A stretch of 64,000 nt of DNA. Origin: Amycolatopsis tolypomycina (lineage in GTDB: Bacteria > Actinomycetota > Actinomycetes > Mycobacteriales > Pseudonocardiaceae). Positions 27,880 through 59,844 of this stretch are shown piece by piece (the first letter of the stretch is position 1; every line of letters starts with the position of its first letter). A model generated the notes under the pieces. It saw nothing but the letters and a program-made list of their open reading frames with translations. It was not told the origin of the DNA and did no database searches. The stretch is from the NCBI RefSeq assembly GCF_900105945.1, contig NZ_FNSO01000004.1, forward strand, positions 1,302,001-1,366,000, read 5' to 3'. A program made the translations under genes and the position numbers.

Positions 27880-28572
27880 ATGGCGCGGGTCAACTACAAC
27901 GAGCTCAACGACACCATCCGCTACACCACCTGGTCGGTCTTCCGGATCGAGCCGGGCCGGCTGGGCGAGGACCGCGGGACCGCCGGCCGGGAGACCGCCG
28001 AGTACCTCGACGGCCTCGAGGCCAAGGGCGTGGTCGTCCGCGGTGTCTACGACCTGTCCGCGCTGCGCGCCGACGCCGACTTCATGGTCTGGTGGCACGC
28101 CGAGGAGATCGAGCAGGTCCAGGCCGCGTACGCCGGGTTCCGCCGGACGCCGCTGGGCCGCGCGTCGACGCCGGTCTGGAGCCAGACCGCGCTGCACCGG
28201 CCCGCCGAGTTCAACAAGAGCCACATCCCGGCGTTCCTGGCCGGGGAAGAGGCGCGCAAGTACGTCTGCGTCTACCCGTTCGTGCGGTCCTACGAGTGGT
28301 ACCTGCTGCCGGACGCCGACCGGCGCAAGATGCTCGCCGACCACGGCAAGGAAGCCCGCGACTACCCGGACGTCCGCGCGAACACCGTCGCGTCGTTCGC
28401 CCTCGGCGACTACGAGTGGATCCTCGCCTTCGAGGCCGACGAGCTGCACCGGATCGTCGACCTCATGCGCCACCTGCGCGGCACCGAGGCGCGGCTGCAC
28501 GTGCGCGAGGAGATCCCGTTCTACACCGGCACCCGCGTGCCGCCCGCCGAGCTCGTCGCGGCTCTCCCGTAG
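27880..28572 (+). CDS. chdC: Hydrogen peroxide-dependent coproheme decarboxylase (HemQ)
   Basis: A 230-residue protein of the chlorite-dismutase fold, starting at ATG 27880. It converts coproheme to heme b, the last step of the coproporphyrin-dependent route. Visible family segments are [44 protein letters not shown] with the catalytic Tyr region, and [20 protein letters not shown] with the heme-ligand His. The ferrochelatase and catalase partners are not in the window. It is downstream of hemY by 56 bases and shares one base with the next gene (TAGTG). Confidence 0.93.
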
Positions 28573-29924
28573 TGCCCGAGAAGACAGTGCGCGAGATCGT
28601 CGAGGGTGTCTGGGACGCCCTGACCGGGTCATCGCCGGGGGCGTTCGAGCTGACCGGAACCGAAGAGGTGCTGCCCGGTCCGTACCGGGTGGCGGCCGCC
28701 GCCACGGCGTCGATCGCGGCGGCGACGCTGGCCGCCGGCGAGATGCTCCGGCTTCGCGACATCGAGCCCGGCGTGGTCACGGCGGACACGCGGCACGCGG
28801 CGGCGGCGTTCCGGAGCGAGCAGCTGCTGCGCGTGGACGGCGTCGGCGCGGAGAACGTCTGGGCACCGCTGTCGGGCGACTACCGCGCGGCCGACGGCTG
28901 GGTGCGGCTGCACGCCAACTACCCGCGCCACGAGGCGGCGATCTGCTGGGGGCTCGGGGTGCCCGGGGCTCGCGAGGCCGTCGAGAAGGCGGTCGCCGGG
29001 CGGAGCGCGCGCGAGGTGGAGCACGCCGTCGTCACCGCCGGGGGAGCGGCCGCCGAGCTGCGGTCGCCGTCGGACTGGGCCGCGCATCCGCAAGGTGAGG
29101 CGGTGTCCTCGCTGCCACTGGTCTCGCTGTCTTCGATCGCCGACGCGCCGAAGCGGACGTTGTTCTACTCGGACCGGCCGCTGGGCGGCATCCGGGTCCT
29201 GGAGCTGACGCACGTGCTCGCCGGCCCGGTGGCCGGCCGGGTGCTGGCCGCGCACGGCGCCGACGTCCTGCACGTCGGGGCGGCGCACCTGCCGCGGGTC
29301 GAGGCGCTGGTGCGCGACACGAACCAGGGCAAGCGCTCGGCGTTCGTGGCACTGGACACCGAGGGCGGCCGCGCGCGGCTGAAGAAGCTGATCAGCCGGG
29401 CGGACGTGCTGGTGCAGTCGTTCCGGCCGGGCGCGTTGGAGCGCATCGGGTTCGGGCCCGCGGAGCTGGCCGAGCTGCGGCCGGGCCTGGTGATCGCGGA
29501 CCTGAGCGCGTACGGCTGGACGGGGCCGTGGGCCCGGCGGCGCGGGTTCGACAGCCTGGTCCAGATGTCGAGCGGCCTGGCCTGGGGCGACCCGCCGTCG
29601 CCCCTGCCGGTCCAGGCACTGGACCACGCCACGGGCTGGCTCACGGCGGCGGCGGTGATGACGGCCCTGCGCCGGCAGGTGACCGACGGCGGCACCTGGC
29701 GCGCGCGGCTGTCACTGGCGGGCACGGGCCGCTGGCTGGATTCCTTGGGCCGCAAGGACCCCGCGGCCACCGACGTCGACTTCGGCGACCTGCTGGAGGA
29801 GGTGGACAGCGGTTACGGGCGCCTGACGCGGGTGAAGATGGCCGGCGGGCTGCCGGGCGCGGAGCCCCACTGGGACTTCGGGACGCGGCTGCCAGGTGTC
29901 GACAAACCGACCTGGACGCCCTGA
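28572..29924 (+). CDS. CaiB/BaiF-family CoA-transferase
   Basis: A 450-residue protein from GTG 28572, sharing one base with the chdC stop. The class III CoA-transferase core is recognisable in RPLGGIRVLELTHVLAGPVA, AHGADVLHVGA, DTNQGKRSAFVALDTEGG and DVLVQSFRPGALERIGFGP. The N-terminal ~190 residues form a second, more divergent CoA-transferase-like half (AAATLAAGEMLRLRDIEPG, VWAPLSGDYRAADGWVRLH). The catalytic Asp expected near the first strand-turn is not clear to me. Substrate unknown; its coupling to heme genes may be only transcriptional. Confidence 0.8.
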   Translation: MPEKTVREIVEGVWDALTGSSPGAFELTGTEEVLPGPYRVAAAATASIAAATLAAGEMLRLRDIEPGVVTADTRHAAAAFRSEQLLRVDGVGAENVWAPLSGDYRAADGWVRLHANYPRHEAAICWGLGVPGAREAVEKAVAGRSAREVEHAVVTAGGAAAELRSPSDWAAHPQGEAVSSLPLVSLSSIADAPKRTLFYSDRPLGGIRVLELTHVLAGPVAGRVLAAHGADVLHVGAAHLPRVEALVRDTNQGKRSAFVALDTEGGRARLKKLISRADVLVQSFRPGALERIGFGPAELAELRPGLVIADLSAYGWTGPWARRRGFDSLVQMSSGLAWGDPPSPLPVQALDHATGWLTAAAVMTALRRQVTDGGTWRARLSLAGTGRWLDSLGRKDPAATDVDFGDLLEEVDSGYGRLTRVKMAGGLPGAEPHWDFGTRLPGVDKPTWTP

Positions 29925-29965: not shown

Positions 29966-30010
29966 TGAACGACTCTTTCATGACGTCTGACGTCATGAAA
30001 GAGTCGTTCA
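29966..30010. repeat. Palindromic repeat, copy 1 (21-base arms)
   Basis: TGAACGACTCTTTCATGACG plus T is mirrored perfectly after a three-base loop (CTG). The arms are 29966-29986 and 29990-30010. It lies between the convergent CoA-transferase and the MNIO-partner gene, where it could end transcription from both sides. Related copies occur at 59788-59844 and 63588-63632. Confidence 0.8.
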
Positions 30011-30074: not shown

Positions 30075-30413
30075 TCAGCGACGCCGGAGGCGGTCGACCA
30101 GCCGGCGCTTCGGCTTGGGCAGGTGGCCGCCTTCGATCAGCCATGTCACGAACTCGTCCGCGTACGCCCCCGACCGCTCCGCCGCCTTCTTCGGGCGGCC
30201 TCGGTTGAACTCCGCGAACAGGGGCCCGAACCGCTCGCCCAGTGCCTCCGCCAGCTCGGGCCGCTGGTAGGCCAGTACCCGGCCGTGCTTGCGTCGCAGC
30301 ACGGTCGCCTCCACCCGCAACCGGTCCGGGTCGAAGCCCGCCGGTGCCGGGCCGTCGGCCAGCAAGGCGTGCAGCAGCTCCGCCTGGCGCCCGGCCAGGT
30401 CCTCGCGGCTCAC
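30075..30413 (-). CDS. Small partner protein of the MNIO enzyme (SCO6045-like)
   Basis: A 112-residue basic protein from GTG 30413, overlapping the MNIO stop by four bases (GTGA). The N-terminal half is helical (LAGRQAELLHALLADGPAPA, VEATVLRRKHGRVLAYQRPE) and the C-terminus is strongly basic (HLPKPKRRLVDRLRRR). I recall a similar small protein, SCO6045, beside the DUF692 gene of Streptomyces. MNIO enzymes commonly need a partner that binds the precursor peptide (MbnC, TglI and others); position and size suggest the same role here, although no sequence similarity to those partners is evident to me. Last gene of the operon. Confidence 0.7.
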   Translation of the reverse strand: MSREDLAGRQAELLHALLADGPAPAGFDPDRLRVEATVLRRKHGRVLAYQRPELAEALGERFGPLFAEFNRGRPKKAAERSGAYADEFVTWLIEGGHLPKPKRRLVDRLRRR

Positions 30414-31210
30414 GTCGTCACCGCTGCCCGCAGCGCCGCCAGCTCCGCCGCGAGTTCGTCGTCCGTGGGGTAGTCGTCGTCGCGCTCCAGCAGGACGCCC
30501 GGCGGGTCCGTGCGGCGGCGCAACTCCGTCAACAGGGACAGCACCTCCGGCAGGACCGGGTGCGCGTGCGTGTCGTGGTAGACGCCGTCGCGCTCGATGC
30601 CGCCCGCCATGTGCACGTACGCCAGCCGCTCCCAGGGGATGCCGTCCAGGAACGCCTCCGGGTCGGTGCCGATGTTGCGGGCGTTGGCGTACAGGTTCGC
30701 GACGTCGATGATCAGCAGGCAGTCCGTCCGCTCGGTCAGCTCGGTGAGGAACTGCTCCTCGGTCAGCTCGGCGTCCGGCCAGTCGAGCACCGCGGCGATG
30801 TTCTCCAGCGCCAGCGGTACGTCCACAATGGACTGGGCGAGCCGGACGTTCGCCACCAGCACGTCCAGTGCCTCGCGCGTGCGGGGGAGCGGCATCAGGT
30901 GCCCCGAGTCGAGCCCGCCCGCGCGCACGAAGCACACGTGGTCGCTGACCAGCGGCGCGTCCAGGGCCCGCGCGATCTCCGCGAGGTGCTGGACGCGGCC
31001 GGTGTCCAGCGGCTCGGCGCCGCCGAGGGACAGCGAGACGGCGTGCGGCAGCACCGGCAGCCCTCGCTTCCGCAGCGCCACGAGCGTCTCCGGCAGGTGG
31101 TCGGCGTGCAGGTTCTCGGCGACGACCTCGACCCAGTCGACGCCCGGCAGCCGCGCGATCGACAGGTCGAGCTCGTGCCGCCAGCCGATCCCGATCCCCA
31201 GCTCACCCAC
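30410..31210 (-). CDS. Multinuclear non-heme iron oxidase (MNIO, formerly DUF692)
   Basis: A 266-residue TIM-barrel enzyme from GTG 31210, with GGAGG eight bases upstream; the start lies inside the end of the preceding gene (8-base overlap). The iron ligands and family motifs are intact: His56 in PHAVSLSLG, His91 in SDHVCF, Glu136 in LENIAAVL, Asp169 and Asn172 in IIDVANLYANA, His200 in VHMAGG, Asp213/His215/His217 in DTHAHPV and Glu242 in LLERDDDYP. Characterised relatives (MbnB, TglH, ApyH, ChrH) oxidatively remodel residues, mostly Cys, in ribosomal peptides. Here the only Cys-rich products nearby are the tails of the two membrane proteins upstream. Confidence 0.92.
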   Translation of the reverse strand: MGELGIGIGWRHELDLSIARLPGVDWVEVVAENLHADHLPETLVALRKRGLPVLPHAVSLSLGGAEPLDTGRVQHLAEIARALDAPLVSDHVCFVRAGGLDSGHLMPLPRTREALDVLVANVRLAQSIVDVPLALENIAAVLDWPDAELTEEQFLTELTERTDCLLIIDVANLYANARNIGTDPEAFLDGIPWERLAYVHMAGGIERDGVYHDTHAHPVLPEVLSLLTELRRRTDPPGVLLERDDDYPTDDELAAELAALRAAVTT

Positions 31211-32120
31211 CGCAACCCCCTCCGCCGCCGCACGACGAACCACACGAGGACCCGCTGCTGCACGACGAGCCGCTGCTGCAGGAAGACCCGCTGCTGCACG
31301 ACGACCCGGACGAGCCCCCGCCGCCGGACGCCGTCACCGGCGGGGCCAGCGCCGCGCTCAGCTCCTCGTCCGGGTACATCGCCCAACCGCCCAGCGCGAC
31401 CGCGGCCGCGGCCCCGCCGAGCAGCACGCCGCCCGCCAGCATCCCGGCCGGCACCGGCCCGCTCGCCGCGGAGCGGACCTGGCCGAGCACGCGGTACCCC
31501 GCGGCCGATGGCTGCCGCGCGCCCGGCTTCGCCCGGCGAACCGCCGCCACCACCGCCAGCACTGCCGCGACGATCACCAGGAACACCAGGATCCCTACCG
31601 GGCGGCCGAGCGCGATGCCGTTGACCAGCCGGACCAGGCCGAACGCCAGCACGCCCACCTGCAGGAGCAGCCCGAACGTCCGTGCCTGCCGCTTCGCCGA
31701 AGCCGACACCAGCAGCCCACGCTGGTCGAGGCCGTCCTCCAGGGCCCGCATCGCCGCCGAGCCGCGCACGGACGCCCGGATCGTCGCCGTCGTCTTCAGG
31801 TGCGCGACGTCGAAGACCGCCCGCTCCACCGGGTCGGACGGCCGTGCCGCGGTCCGGCTGATCTGTTTGTAGCTGTTGACGCGCAGCTGCCCGCGCTCGA
31901 CCAGGGCCGCGATCGCCGCGTCGACGGCCCGGTCGGGGCCACCGGCGAGGAAGGCGAGCTGGTACACCGTGGGCGGCGGACCGGCGAGATCGGCGCCCGC
32001 CCGCATCGCCCGGCGGTTCACGACGCCGGTCACGATGACCCTGACCAGCAGGGCCGCGCCGAGCAGCGCGATGTAGAGGACCACGAAATCCGGTCCGGAA
32101 ATGCCCCACGGGTCGTCCAT
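31203..32120 (-). CDS. TIGR04222-type membrane protein with Ser/Gly/Cys-repeat tail (first tail type)
   Basis: A 305-residue protein from ATG 32120. An N-terminal helix (VVLYIALLGAALLVRVIV), a soluble segment resembling a winged helix (VYQLAFLAGGPDRAVDAAIA), then hydrophobic helices around residues 155-200 and 235-260. The protein has no Cys until the last 32 residues, which contain four SSGSSC units, one GSSC and a final GGGGGCGG: six Cys in a regular array. I recall this architecture as the TIGR04222 family (conserved domain followed by a low-complexity tail). With four helices both termini would be on the same, probably cytoplasmic, side. The MNIO start overlaps its stop, so enzyme and likely substrate are made together. 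Confidence 0.85.
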   Translation of the reverse strand: MDDPWGISGPDFVVLYIALLGAALLVRVIVTGVVNRRAMRAGADLAGPPPTVYQLAFLAGGPDRAVDAAIAALVERGQLRVNSYKQISRTAARPSDPVERAVFDVAHLKTTATIRASVRGSAAMRALEDGLDQRGLLVSASAKRQARTFGLLLQVGVLAFGLVRLVNGIALGRPVGILVFLVIVAAVLAVVAAVRRAKPGARQPSAAGYRVLGQVRSAASGPVPAGMLAGGVLLGGAAAAVALGGWAMYPDEELSAALAPPVTASGGGGSSGSSCSSGSSCSSGSSCSSGSSCGSSCGGGGGCGG

Positions 32121-32186
32121 CGCCCGTCTCCCCTCAGTGTGTCGCGGTTACCGTAGCTGTGAGACGCACGCGCTCGCGTCGGCGTT

Positions 32187-33086
32187 TCAACCGCCGCAGC
32201 CCCCGCCTCCGCCGCCACCTCCGCCGCCGCAGCTGCTGCCCCCGCCGCCTCCGCCGCAGCTCGCGCCGCCGTAGAAACCGGCGCTGCCCCCACTGGCGGC
32301 CGCCCACCCGCGGCGTGGGCCGTGGCCGCGGGACGGCGAGACGTGCGTGGCGCGGCTGACAGCCAGCCGGACGTCCTTGTCGGGGTGGCTGCCGAACCCG
32401 CCGGCCGCGACGGCCGCCACGGCGCCGGACGCCAGCGGCCCGGCCCGCTCGGCTTCGGTGGCCGCGGCCCGCCCGGCGGTGGTGGTGGTCCCCAGTCCGG
32501 GGAGGGTCACGGCGCAGTACGTGCCGACGGCGGCCGCGCCGATGTTCAGCACCAGCAGGCCCACCAGGAAGCCGACCGGGTGCCCGGCCGCCGAGCCCGC
32601 GACCAGCCGGACCGCGCCGAGCACCAGCAGCGCCACGTAGGCCAGCACCGTGAAAACCCAGGTCAGGCGCACCTTCCGGACGTCGACCAGCAGGCCGCGG
32701 GCGATCAGCCCGGCCTCGAGCGCGGCCACCTCCGGGTGCTGCAGCACCTCGCGGCGCACCGATTCGACGGCGGTGCCGGTCTTGCCGATCCGCACCAGCA
32801 CGGCCCGGCCCAGGTCGTCCGGCGCCGAACCGCGGACGTGGTGCACCCGGCCGGTGCCGTCCATCCGGATGGTCTGCTGCTCCAGCAGGCGCGCGACGAC
32901 GACCTCGCCGACGCGCGTGCGGCCGCCGGTGAGCAGCGCGAGTTCTTCGGCCCGCTCCGGCACGCCCCCGCTCCGGCCGCGCCGCAGGACGCCGAGCCGG
33001 AGCCCGGCGGCCAGCGCCGGGACCAGCAGCAACCCCAGGTAGAGCCCCGCGAACACCGGTCCGGGAATACCCCAGGTGTCGGTCAT
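32187..33086 (-). CDS. TIGR04222-type membrane protein with Gly/Cys tail (paralogue)
   Basis: A 299-residue paralogue of the next gene, from ATG 33086 (MTDTWGIPGPVFAGLYLGLL aligns with MDDPWGISGPDFVVLYIALL). The soluble part (ELALLTGGRTRVGEVVVARL) and central helices (VFTVLAYVALLVLGAVRLV, VGFLVGLLVLNIGAAAVG) keep the order of the paralogue. Its tail carries GASCGGGGGGSSCG followed by a long Gly run and CGG, i.e. three Cys spaced by 8 and 12 residues, plus one Cys in a membrane helix. It is the first gene of the operon and is separated from its paralogue by 66 bases. Two substrates with different Cys spacing for one MNIO enzyme would be unusual. Confidence 0.85.
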   Translation of the reverse strand: MTDTWGIPGPVFAGLYLGLLLVPALAAGLRLGVLRRGRSGGVPERAEELALLTGGRTRVGEVVVARLLEQQTIRMDGTGRVHHVRGSAPDDLGRAVLVRIGKTGTAVESVRREVLQHPEVAALEAGLIARGLLVDVRKVRLTWVFTVLAYVALLVLGAVRLVAGSAAGHPVGFLVGLLVLNIGAAAVGTYCAVTLPGLGTTTTAGRAAATEAERAGPLASGAVAAVAAGGFGSHPDKDVRLAVSRATHVSPSRGHGPRRGWAAASGGSAGFYGGASCGGGGGGSSCGGGGGGGGGGCGG

Positions 33087-33175: not shown

Positions 33176-33598
33176 CTACGACTGGGGTACCAATTTGAGC
33201 GAGATCGAGTTGATGCAGTAACGCTGGTCGGTCGGGGTCGGGTAGCCCTCGCCCTCGAAGACGTGCCCGAGGTGGCTGTGGCAGGAGCCGCAGAGCACCT
33301 CGATGCGCTTCATGCCCATGGTGCGGTCTTCGCGCAGCAGCACGGCGTCGGAATCGGCCGGGTCGTAGAAGGACGGCCAGCCGCAGTGGCTGTCGAACTT
33401 CGTGTCGCTGCGGAACAGCTCGGCACCGCAGGCGCGGCACTCGTAGACGCCGGTGGTCTTCGTGTCGGTGTACTCACCGGTGAACGGCCGTTCGGTCCCC
33501 GCCTGGCGGAGGACGGCGAACTCGTCGGGGCTGAGCTGCGCCCGCCATTCCTGCTCGGACTTCACGACGCGCGGGGTCGCGCCGACAACGGGTTTCAT
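33176..33598 (-). CDS. msrB: Peptide-methionine (R)-S-oxide reductase
   Basis: A 140-residue enzyme from ATG 33598; GTG 33616 upstream would add six residues. It reduces methionine-R-sulfoxide in proteins. Zinc is held by Cys54/Cys57 (YECRACGAELF) and Cys103/Cys106 (VLCGSCHSHLGHVFEG), and the catalytic Cys128 lies in QRYCINSISL. FDSHCGWPSFYDP is also characteristic. The resolving Cys is not obvious other than Cys72. It is transcribed toward the same side as the MNIO operon's start region but is a separate unit. Confidence 0.95.
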   Translation of the reverse strand: MKPVVGATPRVVKSEQEWRAQLSPDEFAVLRQAGTERPFTGEYTDTKTTGVYECRACGAELFRSDTKFDSHCGWPSFYDPADSDAVLLREDRTMGMKRIEVLCGSCHSHLGHVFEGEGYPTPTDQRYCINSISLKLVPQS

Positions 33599-33617
33599 AC
33601 CTTTCACCCGATCCACG

Positions 33618-33923
33618 TTACGCCGCGAGCCAGGCGAGGGCGTGCACGACGATGTCCCATGCGGCCACGATCACGCCGAGCACGATGAGGACGACGATCA
33701 GGGCCGCGACCCAGTAGCGCAGCCCCCCGAGCCGGTTGCTGGAGTCGGCGAAGTCGGCAACCCCGTCCAGTGCGGCTTCGATGGTGAAGTTCGGTCCGCA
33801 CCGCTCGATGCGGTCGAGGTGCTCGGCGAACGCGCGCGCCTCCGGATCGTACGGGTCCAGGCCGACCAGGTCCTCGTGGAAGCGAGGATTCTGGCCCGGC
33901 AGCGAAGCTCCGTCGTCGGCCAT
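33618..33923 (-). CDS. Small single-helix membrane protein
   Basis: A 101-residue protein from ATG 33923 (MADDGASLPGQNPRFHEDLV); an ATG at 33941 is less likely. The N-terminal 65 residues are polar and acidic, and residues 70-100 form one hydrophobic helix (YWVAALIVVLIVLGVIVAAW) ending in a short polar tail. No known domain. It precedes msrB by 19 bases and may be co-transcribed with it. Confidence 0.7.
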   Translation of the reverse strand: MADDGASLPGQNPRFHEDLVGLDPYDPEARAFAEHLDRIERCGPNFTIEAALDGVADFADSSNRLGGLRYWVAALIVVLIVLGVIVAAWDIVVHALAWLAA

Positions 33924-33976
33924 GCCACCACGGTAGGCCATCCGGCCCGCTCAGCACACCGGACGCGCGTTAAGTC

Positions 33977-36507: not shown

Positions 36508-37800
36508 AGTGTCAGGGTGGTGTTGCCGCTGTTGCGGTGGTTGGGATCCTGGCCGCTGGTGACCTGGCTCGTAGCGTCGCTGCCACCTGCTTGCGGGTTG
36601 GCGATCATGCGTTGTGCCGGTCACCGGTGAGCCAGGGCCGACCGGCGTGACTTGATAGGAGCGTGGCAGCGCCCCCACTGAGGTGTGTCCGCCGGCCGGC
36701 CCAGCCGTCCCTTCGAGCTGGAAGGAGACCATCCCCATGGTGGTGATGCTGGGTATCGATGTCCACAAGAACACCCACACCGCGGTCGCGGTCGAGCAGG
36801 TAGGGCGCAAACTCGACCAGAAGACGGTGCGCGCGACCGATGCCGGTCACCGGCAGCTGCTGCGCTGGGCACTGCGCAACTGGCCAGACACCGAGCTGAC
36901 GTTCGCGGTGGAGGACTGCCGGCACGTGTCGACCCGGCTGGAACGAGCGCTGCTCGCCGCAGGCCAGACCGTGGTCCGGGTCCCGCCGAAGCTGATGGCC
37001 GGAGCTCGCTCCTCGGCGCGCACGCGCGGCAAGTCAGACCCGATCGACGCACTGGCCATCGCCCGGGCCGCGCTGCGCGAACCGAACCTGCCGGCCGCCA
37101 CACACGACAGCGTCTCCCGCGAGGTCAAACTGCTCGTCGACCACCGCGAAGACCTGGTCAACACCCGCACCCAGGTGCAGAACCGGCTGCGCTGGCACCT
37201 ACACGAACTCGACCCCGAACTCGACCCCACCGCCCGCAGCCTGGACCGGCTCTGCGAACTCGACCGGCTCACCGCCTGGCTGGCCCAGCAGCCGGCATCG
37301 ATGGTGGTGCGCATCGCCACCGAGCTGGTCACCGACATCCGGGCACTCACCGTCCGCGCCAACGCACTGGAGCGGGAACTCGCCCAGCGGATGGCTCACC
37401 TCGCACCCCGCCTGCTCGCCATACCCGGCTGCGGTGCCCTGACCGCAGCGAAAATCGTCGGCGAAACCGCCAACGTGACCCGGTTCCGCTCCGAAGCCTG
37501 CTTCGCCATGCACGCCGGCGTCGCCCCCATCCCCGCCTCCTCCGGCAAGACAAACCGACACCGCCTCGCCCGCGGCGGCAACCGACAACTCAACGCCGCG
37601 CTGCACCGCATCGCCGTCACCCAAACCCGCCTGGCCGGCCCCGGCCGCGACTACATCCACCGACGCCGAACCACCGGAGACACCACCATGGAAGCACTCC
37701 GCGCCCTCAAACGACGCCTCGCCCGCGTCGTCTACAACACCCTCCACCACGACACGACCCAACAACCAACCACGCTCCCCGCAGCGGCTTGACATAGGAG
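36508..37800 (+). mobile_element. IS110-family insertion sequence (ends approximate)
   Basis: The element consists of a ~230-base noncoding left end (beginning near GTGTCAGGGTGGTGTTGCCG), the transposase gene and a very short right end of roughly 10 bases. IS110 elements lack terminal inverted repeats and target duplications, so both borders are estimates. CTTGATAGGAGC (36652 region) and CTTGACATAGGAGCA (37788 region) are similar sequences near the gene's two ends and may mark recombination sites. The noncoding left end is where IS110 elements carry their bridge RNA. Confidence 0.65.
36737..37792 (+). CDS. IS110-family DEDD transposase
   Basis: A 351-residue recombinase from ATG 36737, with GAAGGAG eight bases ahead. 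The N-terminal RuvC-like DEDD domain starts MVVMLGIDVHKNTHTAVAVE and continues with TFAVEDCRHVS and SDPIDALAIARAAL; the C-terminal Tnp domain contains LLAIPGCGALTAAKIVGETA and the serine-bearing GVAPIPASSGK. The frame is uninterrupted, so the element may be active. Confidence 0.93.
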   Translation: MVVMLGIDVHKNTHTAVAVEQVGRKLDQKTVRATDAGHRQLLRWALRNWPDTELTFAVEDCRHVSTRLERALLAAGQTVVRVPPKLMAGARSSARTRGKSDPIDALAIARAALREPNLPAATHDSVSREVKLLVDHREDLVNTRTQVQNRLRWHLHELDPELDPTARSLDRLCELDRLTAWLAQQPASMVVRIATELVTDIRALTVRANALERELAQRMAHLAPRLLAIPGCGALTAAKIVGETANVTRFRSEACFAMHAGVAPIPASSGKTNRHRLARGGNRQLNAALHRIAVTQTRLAGPGRDYIHRRRTTGDTTMEALRALKRRLARVVYNTLHHDTTQQPTTLPAAA

Positions 37801-59787: not shown

Positions 59788-59844
59788 ACGTCATGAAAGA
59801 GTCGTTCATGACATCTGGTGTCATGAACGACTCTTTCATGACGT
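59788..59844. repeat. Palindromic repeat, copy 2 (26-base arms)
   Basis: ACGTCATGAAAGAGTCGTTC followed by ATGACA (59788-59813) is mirrored perfectly at 59819-59844 around the loop TCTGG. It lies in the divergent gap between the PAP2 gene and the FAD oxidase gene, so here it cannot be a simple terminator of either. Translated, it yields the sequence MKESFMT, which creates spurious N-termini for the downstream gene. Confidence 0.85.

Follow-up and report, generated by a model that had tools for sequence, protein, structure and literature searches.

A conserved MNIO enzyme, a short partner and cysteine-rich membrane-protein tails in Amycolatopsis tolypomycina: a candidate membrane-tethered modification unit

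Introduction

On what does an enzyme of the MNIO (DUF692) family act when its gene follows two genes for membrane proteins with cysteine-bearing C-terminal tails? The question is raised by an operon in a 64,000-nucleotide stretch of the Amycolatopsis tolypomycina genome (assembly GCF_900105945.1, contig NZ_FNSO01000004.1, positions 1,302,001 to 1,366,000), which we call the window and whose own numbering is used below. The operon encodes two TIGR04222 membrane proteins (TM1 and TM2, both putative substrates), the MNIO enzyme and a short partner protein. A preliminary description, made from the letters alone, had proposed that the Cys tail is the substrate of the enzyme and that the system is undescribed. 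The first proposal is supported by the comparison of genomes given here, which suggests that enzyme, partner and tail form a conserved unit with the Cys tail as the likely substrate. The second had to be abandoned, since both the pairing of TIGR04222 proteins with MNIOs and the PME-type 2 partners are already in the literature (Antoine et al. 2025, PMC12452194).

Antoine et al. described TIGR04222 membrane proteins with C-terminal Ser/Gly/Cys tails, mostly from Actinomycetota, as putative MNIO substrates. In their data, 10% or more of the TIGR04222 clusters have a short PME-type 2 partner while many clusters appear to have no partner gene, over a quarter of the TIGR04222 proteins are without Cys near the C-terminus, and 490 of 1372 TIGR04222 genomes lack an MNIO. 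The system described here shares their enzyme family, their kind of tail and their short kind of partner, and one of their examples, from Saccharothrix sp. NRRL B-16314, comes from the strain of a locus in our own set (L040). A term search of the main text of PMC12452194 returned no link to a heme gene or to methionine sulfoxide and no enzyme-partner fusion. No further paper that links TIGR04222 to MNIOs came up in our literature searches, although others may exist. What is added here is the counting of tails against partners, enzyme-partner fusions, anchors with a single transmembrane helix (1-TM anchors), evidence for a cytoplasmic tail, and a conserved Asp in the enzyme together with a Cys-Gly/Ser context in the tail.

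Results and Discussion

All four genes lie on the minus strand: TM1 at 32187..33086 (299 aa), TM2 at 31203..32120 (305 aa), the MNIO gene at 30410..31210 (266 aa from GTG 31210) and the partner gene at 30075..30410 (111 aa). That they form one operon, as first described, is borne out by their spacing, with 66 nt between TM1 and TM2, an 8-nt overlap of TM2 with the enzyme gene and a 4-nt overlap of the enzyme stop with the partner start (GTG 30410), and by conservation of the unit. The enzyme had been said to start inside the stop of the substrate gene; the two genes do overlap, but the GTG (31210-31208) comes just before the TGA of TM2 (31205-31203), and translation could also begin earlier, at GTG 31243. 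Both membrane proteins exceed the TIGR04222 cut-off of 43 (TM1 with 91.8 bits, TM2 with 151.8 bits), and the enzyme exceeds the PF05114 cut-off of 25 with 280.4 bits. The nearest named loci are from Amycolatopsis, with enzyme identity of up to 99%.

TM2 contains exactly six Cys (residues 275, 281, 287, 293, 297 and 303), all within its last 31 residues. They stand in a tail (residues 264-305 plus the stop, 31203..31331, minus strand) composed of four SSGSSC units, GSSC, GGGGGC and a final GG. These motifs had been reported exactly, but for the first membrane protein, whereas TM2 is the second of the two in the operon. The other protein, with three Cys in a Gly tail, is TM1; its fourth Cys, in the third hydrophobic stretch, had gone unmentioned. 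A genome-wide search with a loose SSC-type repeat pattern gave 21 matches, against 33 and 37 in the reversed control, and revealed no second such tail; tandem-overlapping matches were confined to the three in this locus. A plasmid search with TM2 gave no match.

The preliminary description had made its proposal depend on the co-occurrence of DUF692 and Cys-tail genes across genomes, and the DUF692 and TIGR04222 families do co-occur. Among 249 genomes of the order, in which at most 11 TIGR04222 candidates were scored per genome, PF05114 was found in 86, TIGR04222 over its cut-off in 96 and both in 82, leaving 14 genomes with TIGR04222 only and 4 with MNIO only. Of the TIGR04222 matches listed over the cut-off, 107 of 149 are found at most 10 kb from an MNIO gene, all on the same strand and upstream of it, so the association is more than chance. 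A draw of 296 genomes from the phylum gave MNIO in 15, TIGR04222 over the cut-off in 11 and both in 10 (counted by hand). In 80 related named loci, a match to the partner was present in all 80, a TM2-like protein in 76, a tail in 79, msrB in 71 and chdC in 62.

Among 148 MNIO loci of the genome set, which may overlap the 80 named loci as the two sets were not de-duplicated, a partner lies no more than 5.5 kb away in 129 and is missing in 19. With five loci near contig ends set aside, a Cys tail lies within 5 kb in 104 of 124 loci with a partner and in none of the 19 without one (L123, L124, L131-L137, L199, L200, L215, L222, L224, L227, L233 and L255-L257). Since the model of the partner derives from loci of this set, highly divergent partners elsewhere may have escaped it.

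The tails themselves are regular. Their Cys spacing has a clear mode of 6, the last two Cys are kept in at least 90% of 61 aligned sequences, and the residue after a tail Cys is Gly in 251 and Ser in 61 of 318 cases (312 together). At least two Cys occur in the last 60 residues of 68 of 73 TIGR04222 proteins near an MNIO gene, a subset of the 107 near matches taken from the stretches fetched by then. The same feature is found in 3 of 14 TIGR04222 proteins from genomes without MNIO, one of which (G432) appears to be read out of frame; the rows are not independent of one another, 13 of the 14 being from one family (f84). In a single case (L170) the match to the enzyme is broken up among three frames, and the adjoining TIGR04222 protein has a single tail Cys.

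The tail is also found on a different kind of anchor. At nine loci (L128-L130, L206, L209, L211, L220, L231 and L234) a tail with 3-9 Cys belongs to a protein of 83-119 residues (inferred starts) that has no TIGR04222 match and is built of one N-terminal hydrophobic helix, an Arg-rich stretch and then the tail. A partner match is present at all nine (E <= 1.1e-16), and the eight that could be placed on the enzyme tree need two changes there. Two loci with Cys tails of unsettled type (L212 and L232) were left out of this count. At another locus (L020), called by script as a non-TIGR04222 tail, the contig starts close upstream. The occurrence of Cys tails on unrelated 1-TM anchors beside the enzyme-partner pair suggests that the tail is what travels with that pair.

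Several observations weigh against the tail as substrate. In a tree of the enzymes (141 rows, FastTree, with long branches among the others), those with a partner lie on one side of a single branch with support of 97, so that the contrast of 104/124 with 0/19 marks one subfamily and amounts to one evolutionary event, not to a repeated correlation; with a single change of the partner on this tree, significance was out of reach for independent-pairs tests. Twenty of the 124 full loci have enzyme and partner but no visible Cys tail, 16 of them in fused form and 14 of these from one family (f5), which implies that the enzyme there acts elsewhere or on something else; for one (L246) the absence is unsure, as the sequence ends downstream, where f5 loci keep the tail gene. 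At least two Cys in the last 60 residues are also found in 9 of 27 distal TIGR04222 proteins of MNIO-bearing genomes (a 28th, which runs off its contig, was left out), with 11 of the 18 Cys-poor rows being one protein type from one genus (f3 g4). It could thus be argued that the tail is an unmodified low-complexity sequence, that the MNIO has another substrate and that their linkage is historical. The tail-less loci would fit this explanation, as would the Cys-less Gly-rich tails of distal paralogues and the single base that separates Gly from Cys codons. The spacing mode of 6, the retention of the last two Cys and the finding that unrelated anchors carry the tail where this enzyme-partner pair is encoded speak against it, and we consider it very unlikely.

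The small partner gene had been recognized correctly. Its product has no Cys, an Arg-rich end and five helices in its model, and it appears to be a DUF2063-like helical protein of PME-type 2: it follows directly after the MNIO and has no DUF2063 signature of its own. It gave no Pfam match at E <= 0.1 and lacks the DUF2063 domain plus full RiPP recognition element (RRE), at 250-260 aa, of PME-type 1, and an NCBIfam scan of its relatives gave nothing useful. A concern about this assignment is that its match to MbnC is modest for a helical protein and that NGO1945 is absent among the matches listed. In contrast to the clusters of Antoine et al., a partner match was obtained at every fetched TIGR04222-MNIO locus of the order. 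In several lineages the enzyme and the partner are encoded as one reading frame; a script called such fused forms at 32 of 129 partner-bearing loci, and the sequences of five were inspected. At two loci (L198 and L206) the partner match comes after the enzyme match, and in family f5, which we take to be Streptomyces-like, the fusion (L194-L197, L235-L251 and L253) is often accompanied by a Cys-less TIGR04222 protein and mostly has chdC nearby. These fusions, like the 1-TM anchors and the cytoplasmic tail favoured by sequence, set the system apart from those described in PMC12452194.

The nine His/Asp/Glu/Asn residues conserved in MNIOs are all present in the enzyme (H56, H91, E136, D169, N172, H200, D213, H215 and E242), as had been stated. 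We take these to be ligands of the multinuclear iron expected of an MNIO. Each is conserved at 0.99-1.00 in 122 enzymes of the partner-bearing clade and at 0.74-1.00 in the 19 others, and alignments to 3bww and 8hci show their counterparts. A further residue, Asp244, corresponds by motif to Asp249 of FonB, the proposed base of MNIOs that form thiooxazoles, and is present in 121 of the 122 clade enzymes, the remaining one having a gap. It is followed by Gly in 63, Asp in 36, Glu in 13 and Ala in 6 of them; Glu is commoner in tail-less loci (9 of 18, against 4 of 104 with a tail, as raw counts over related loci). In FonB, Asp249 is required, the residue that follows it (Phe or Asp) has a tuning effect on specificity, and the enzyme studied favours a small residue after Cys (PMC13097082).

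The conserved Asp and the small residue after Cys make a 5-thiooxazole the first guess for the product, and the oxidised tail Cys would perhaps be of this type. Bufferins and captophorins (Buf1, Buf2, EGKCG), which carry 5-thiooxazoles, groups reported to absorb near 305 nm, likewise have several Cys per substrate and a small residue after Cys, and their conserved-Asp MNIO and DUF2063-like partner have probable counterparts here (PMC13097082). Unlike them, the substrate here would be a multi-pass membrane protein with SSC/GGC tail motifs instead of EGKCG or DUF2282, the partner is too short for DUF2063 plus a full RRE, and the enzyme falls under the BufB equivalog cut-off (202.4 bits against 310); TM1 and TM2 have no DUF2282 match and no EGKCG by eye. 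The enzyme differs further from MbnB, whose equivalog cut-off of 325 is far above its 47.7 bits. In the methanobactin system of MbnB and MbnC the precursor is a short peptide and the product is secreted. Chemistry, metal and function we infer from relatives; by this analogy the tail is likely to be a metal binder, with copper as a first guess for the metal. It is unlikely, in our judgement, that the tail instead undergoes another MNIO reaction (oxazolone-thioamide formation, beta-carbon excision or a cross-link) and serves in signalling or protein anchoring. MNIO chemistry is known to be diverse, and no metal transporter or metal regulator was found among 11 window proteins scanned against Pfam, both of which would suit such a role, but both the conserved Asp and the occurrence of Gly or Ser after Cys are in keeping with the thiooxazole group.

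On which side of the membrane would the modified tail lie? Antoine et al. predict periplasmic tails; on their view modification would precede export, and the tails would bind copper on the outer side of the membrane in the manner of bufferins, which act in the periplasm (PMC12452194). The AlphaFold model of TM2 (pLDDT 83.5) has helices at 9-40, 140-170 and 176-197, followed by short helices at 206-220, 225-229, 237-248 and 252-258 and a disordered tail. Bufferin and captophorin precursors have a Sec signal peptide; in TM2 the N-terminal helix has no preceding K/R. Across the relatives, K+R per 12 residues is 0.08 before helix 1 and 2.26 after it (a bias seen in 59 of 61 sequences), with 6.05 K+R just after helix 3, and this bias would place the TM2 domain and tail together on the cytoplasmic side. 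In favour of an outside tail, the stretch 226-247 is hydrophobic, is uncharged in 40 of 61 sequences and is followed by acidic residues, an arrangement found in many members; it could be a fourth helix, and if it crossed the membrane the tail would lie outside, as published. The confidence of the model is also only 64-70 pLDDT at residues 221-240. However, Arg, Glu or Pro residues in the counterparts of this stretch from some paralogues speak against a conserved crossing, and the 1-TM anchors, with their Arg-rich stretch between helix and tail, point inward as well. From the charge bias, the short modelled helices and these anchors we consider the cytoplasmic side quite probable, and the published view fairly unlikely.

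The fold of TM2 gave few leads. A Foldseek search of the model against the PDB had a best E of 3.3, with nothing usable, and a sequence profile search of the PDB returned low-complexity tails first (E 7.7e-5) and then weak matches to winged-helix regulators (E 0.008-0.012). Even when taken with the way helix and hairpin follow each other in the model, these matches make a winged-helix-like domain only a lead. TM2 also matches DUF2207_C (E 7.7e-6, 26.2 bits, below the Pfam cut-off of 33), as do 10 of 61 relatives at E <= 0.01. DUF2207 membrane proteins have Gly-rich tails; we know of no MNIO association for them, and our literature search found no paper on DUF2207.

The transcription order on the minus strand is a gene for a 107-aa protein (33618..33941), msrB (33176..33616), TM1, TM2, MNIO and partner. 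The methionine-(R)-sulfoxide reductase gene msrB lies 89 nt upstream of TM1, and the 107-aa protein, which has no Pfam or NCBIfam match, is matched in 68 of the 80 named loci. Outside the operon and convergent with it on the plus strand lie chdC (HemQ, 27880..28572, HemQ_actino 369 bits) and, between the two, a CoA-transferase family III gene (28710..29924, Pfam scan). The proximity of chdC had been thought to invite an iron or copper link. It does recur in two families: among the chdC rows listed, 19 of the 23 genomes from the source's family have chdC at most 15 kb away, and in f5 it is in the fetched stretch of 21 of 24 partner-bearing loci. In the rows listed for other families of the order, on the other hand, it lies within 15 kb in none of 46 genomes, being 0.2-5.1 Mb away on the same contig in 12 and on different contigs in 34; a further 17 MNIO genomes had no chdC row among those listed. 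The two blocks are convergent in the window, and the link is weak and was kept as positional only. Copper reportedly affects heme synthesis (PMC7283390).

The gap where the CoA-transferase and partner genes converge contains a palindrome (29966-30010), whose 21-base arm has 68 copies in the genome (none in the reversed control), often paired, as in a dispersed repetitive extragenic palindromic (REP)-like element; a second pair is at 59788-59844. An IS110-family transposase gene (36683-37792, plus strand; PF01548, PF02371) adjoins a gene for a VTT-domain membrane protein. The non-coding flanks of IS110 elements may encode a bridge RNA.

Conclusions

The reading that we find on balance probable is a membrane-tethered unit resembling the ribosomally synthesized and post-translationally modified peptides (RiPPs), in which MNIO and partner oxidise Cys of cytosol-facing tails to give a soft-metal ligand. 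The partner, apparently DUF2063-like, would position the MNIO, which would oxidise Cys in the flexible Ser/Gly C-terminal tails of the two 3-TM membrane proteins. The tails would remain on the cytoplasmic face, close to the enzyme in the cytosol, with several of their Cys oxidised, perhaps to 5-thiooxazoles as in bufferins and captophorins, and each modified tail could serve as a multi-site ligand for a soft metal, probably copper, at the inner membrane surface. Comparison of loci shows the conservation of enzyme, partner and tail as a unit, the portability of the tail and the active-site residues, and it supports the relationship of the partner.

More tentatively, these loci may represent a class of intracellular membrane-tethered metallophore, in which an oxidised Cys tail is carried at the cytosolic face on interchangeable anchors, either TIGR04222 proteins with a perhaps winged-helix-like domain or 1-TM peptides, and an MNIO decorates resident membrane proteins instead of producing a peptide for export. 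The 1-TM anchors and the loci in which enzyme and partner are naturally fused offer small, tractable starting points. Most known products of MNIOs are small peptides that leave the cell; should the tail prove to be modified and to face the cytosol, resident membrane proteins would also be among the substrates of these enzymes. Actinomycetota would then possess an intracellular thiooxazole metal buffer of their own, of a kind for which we found no assay in the literature.

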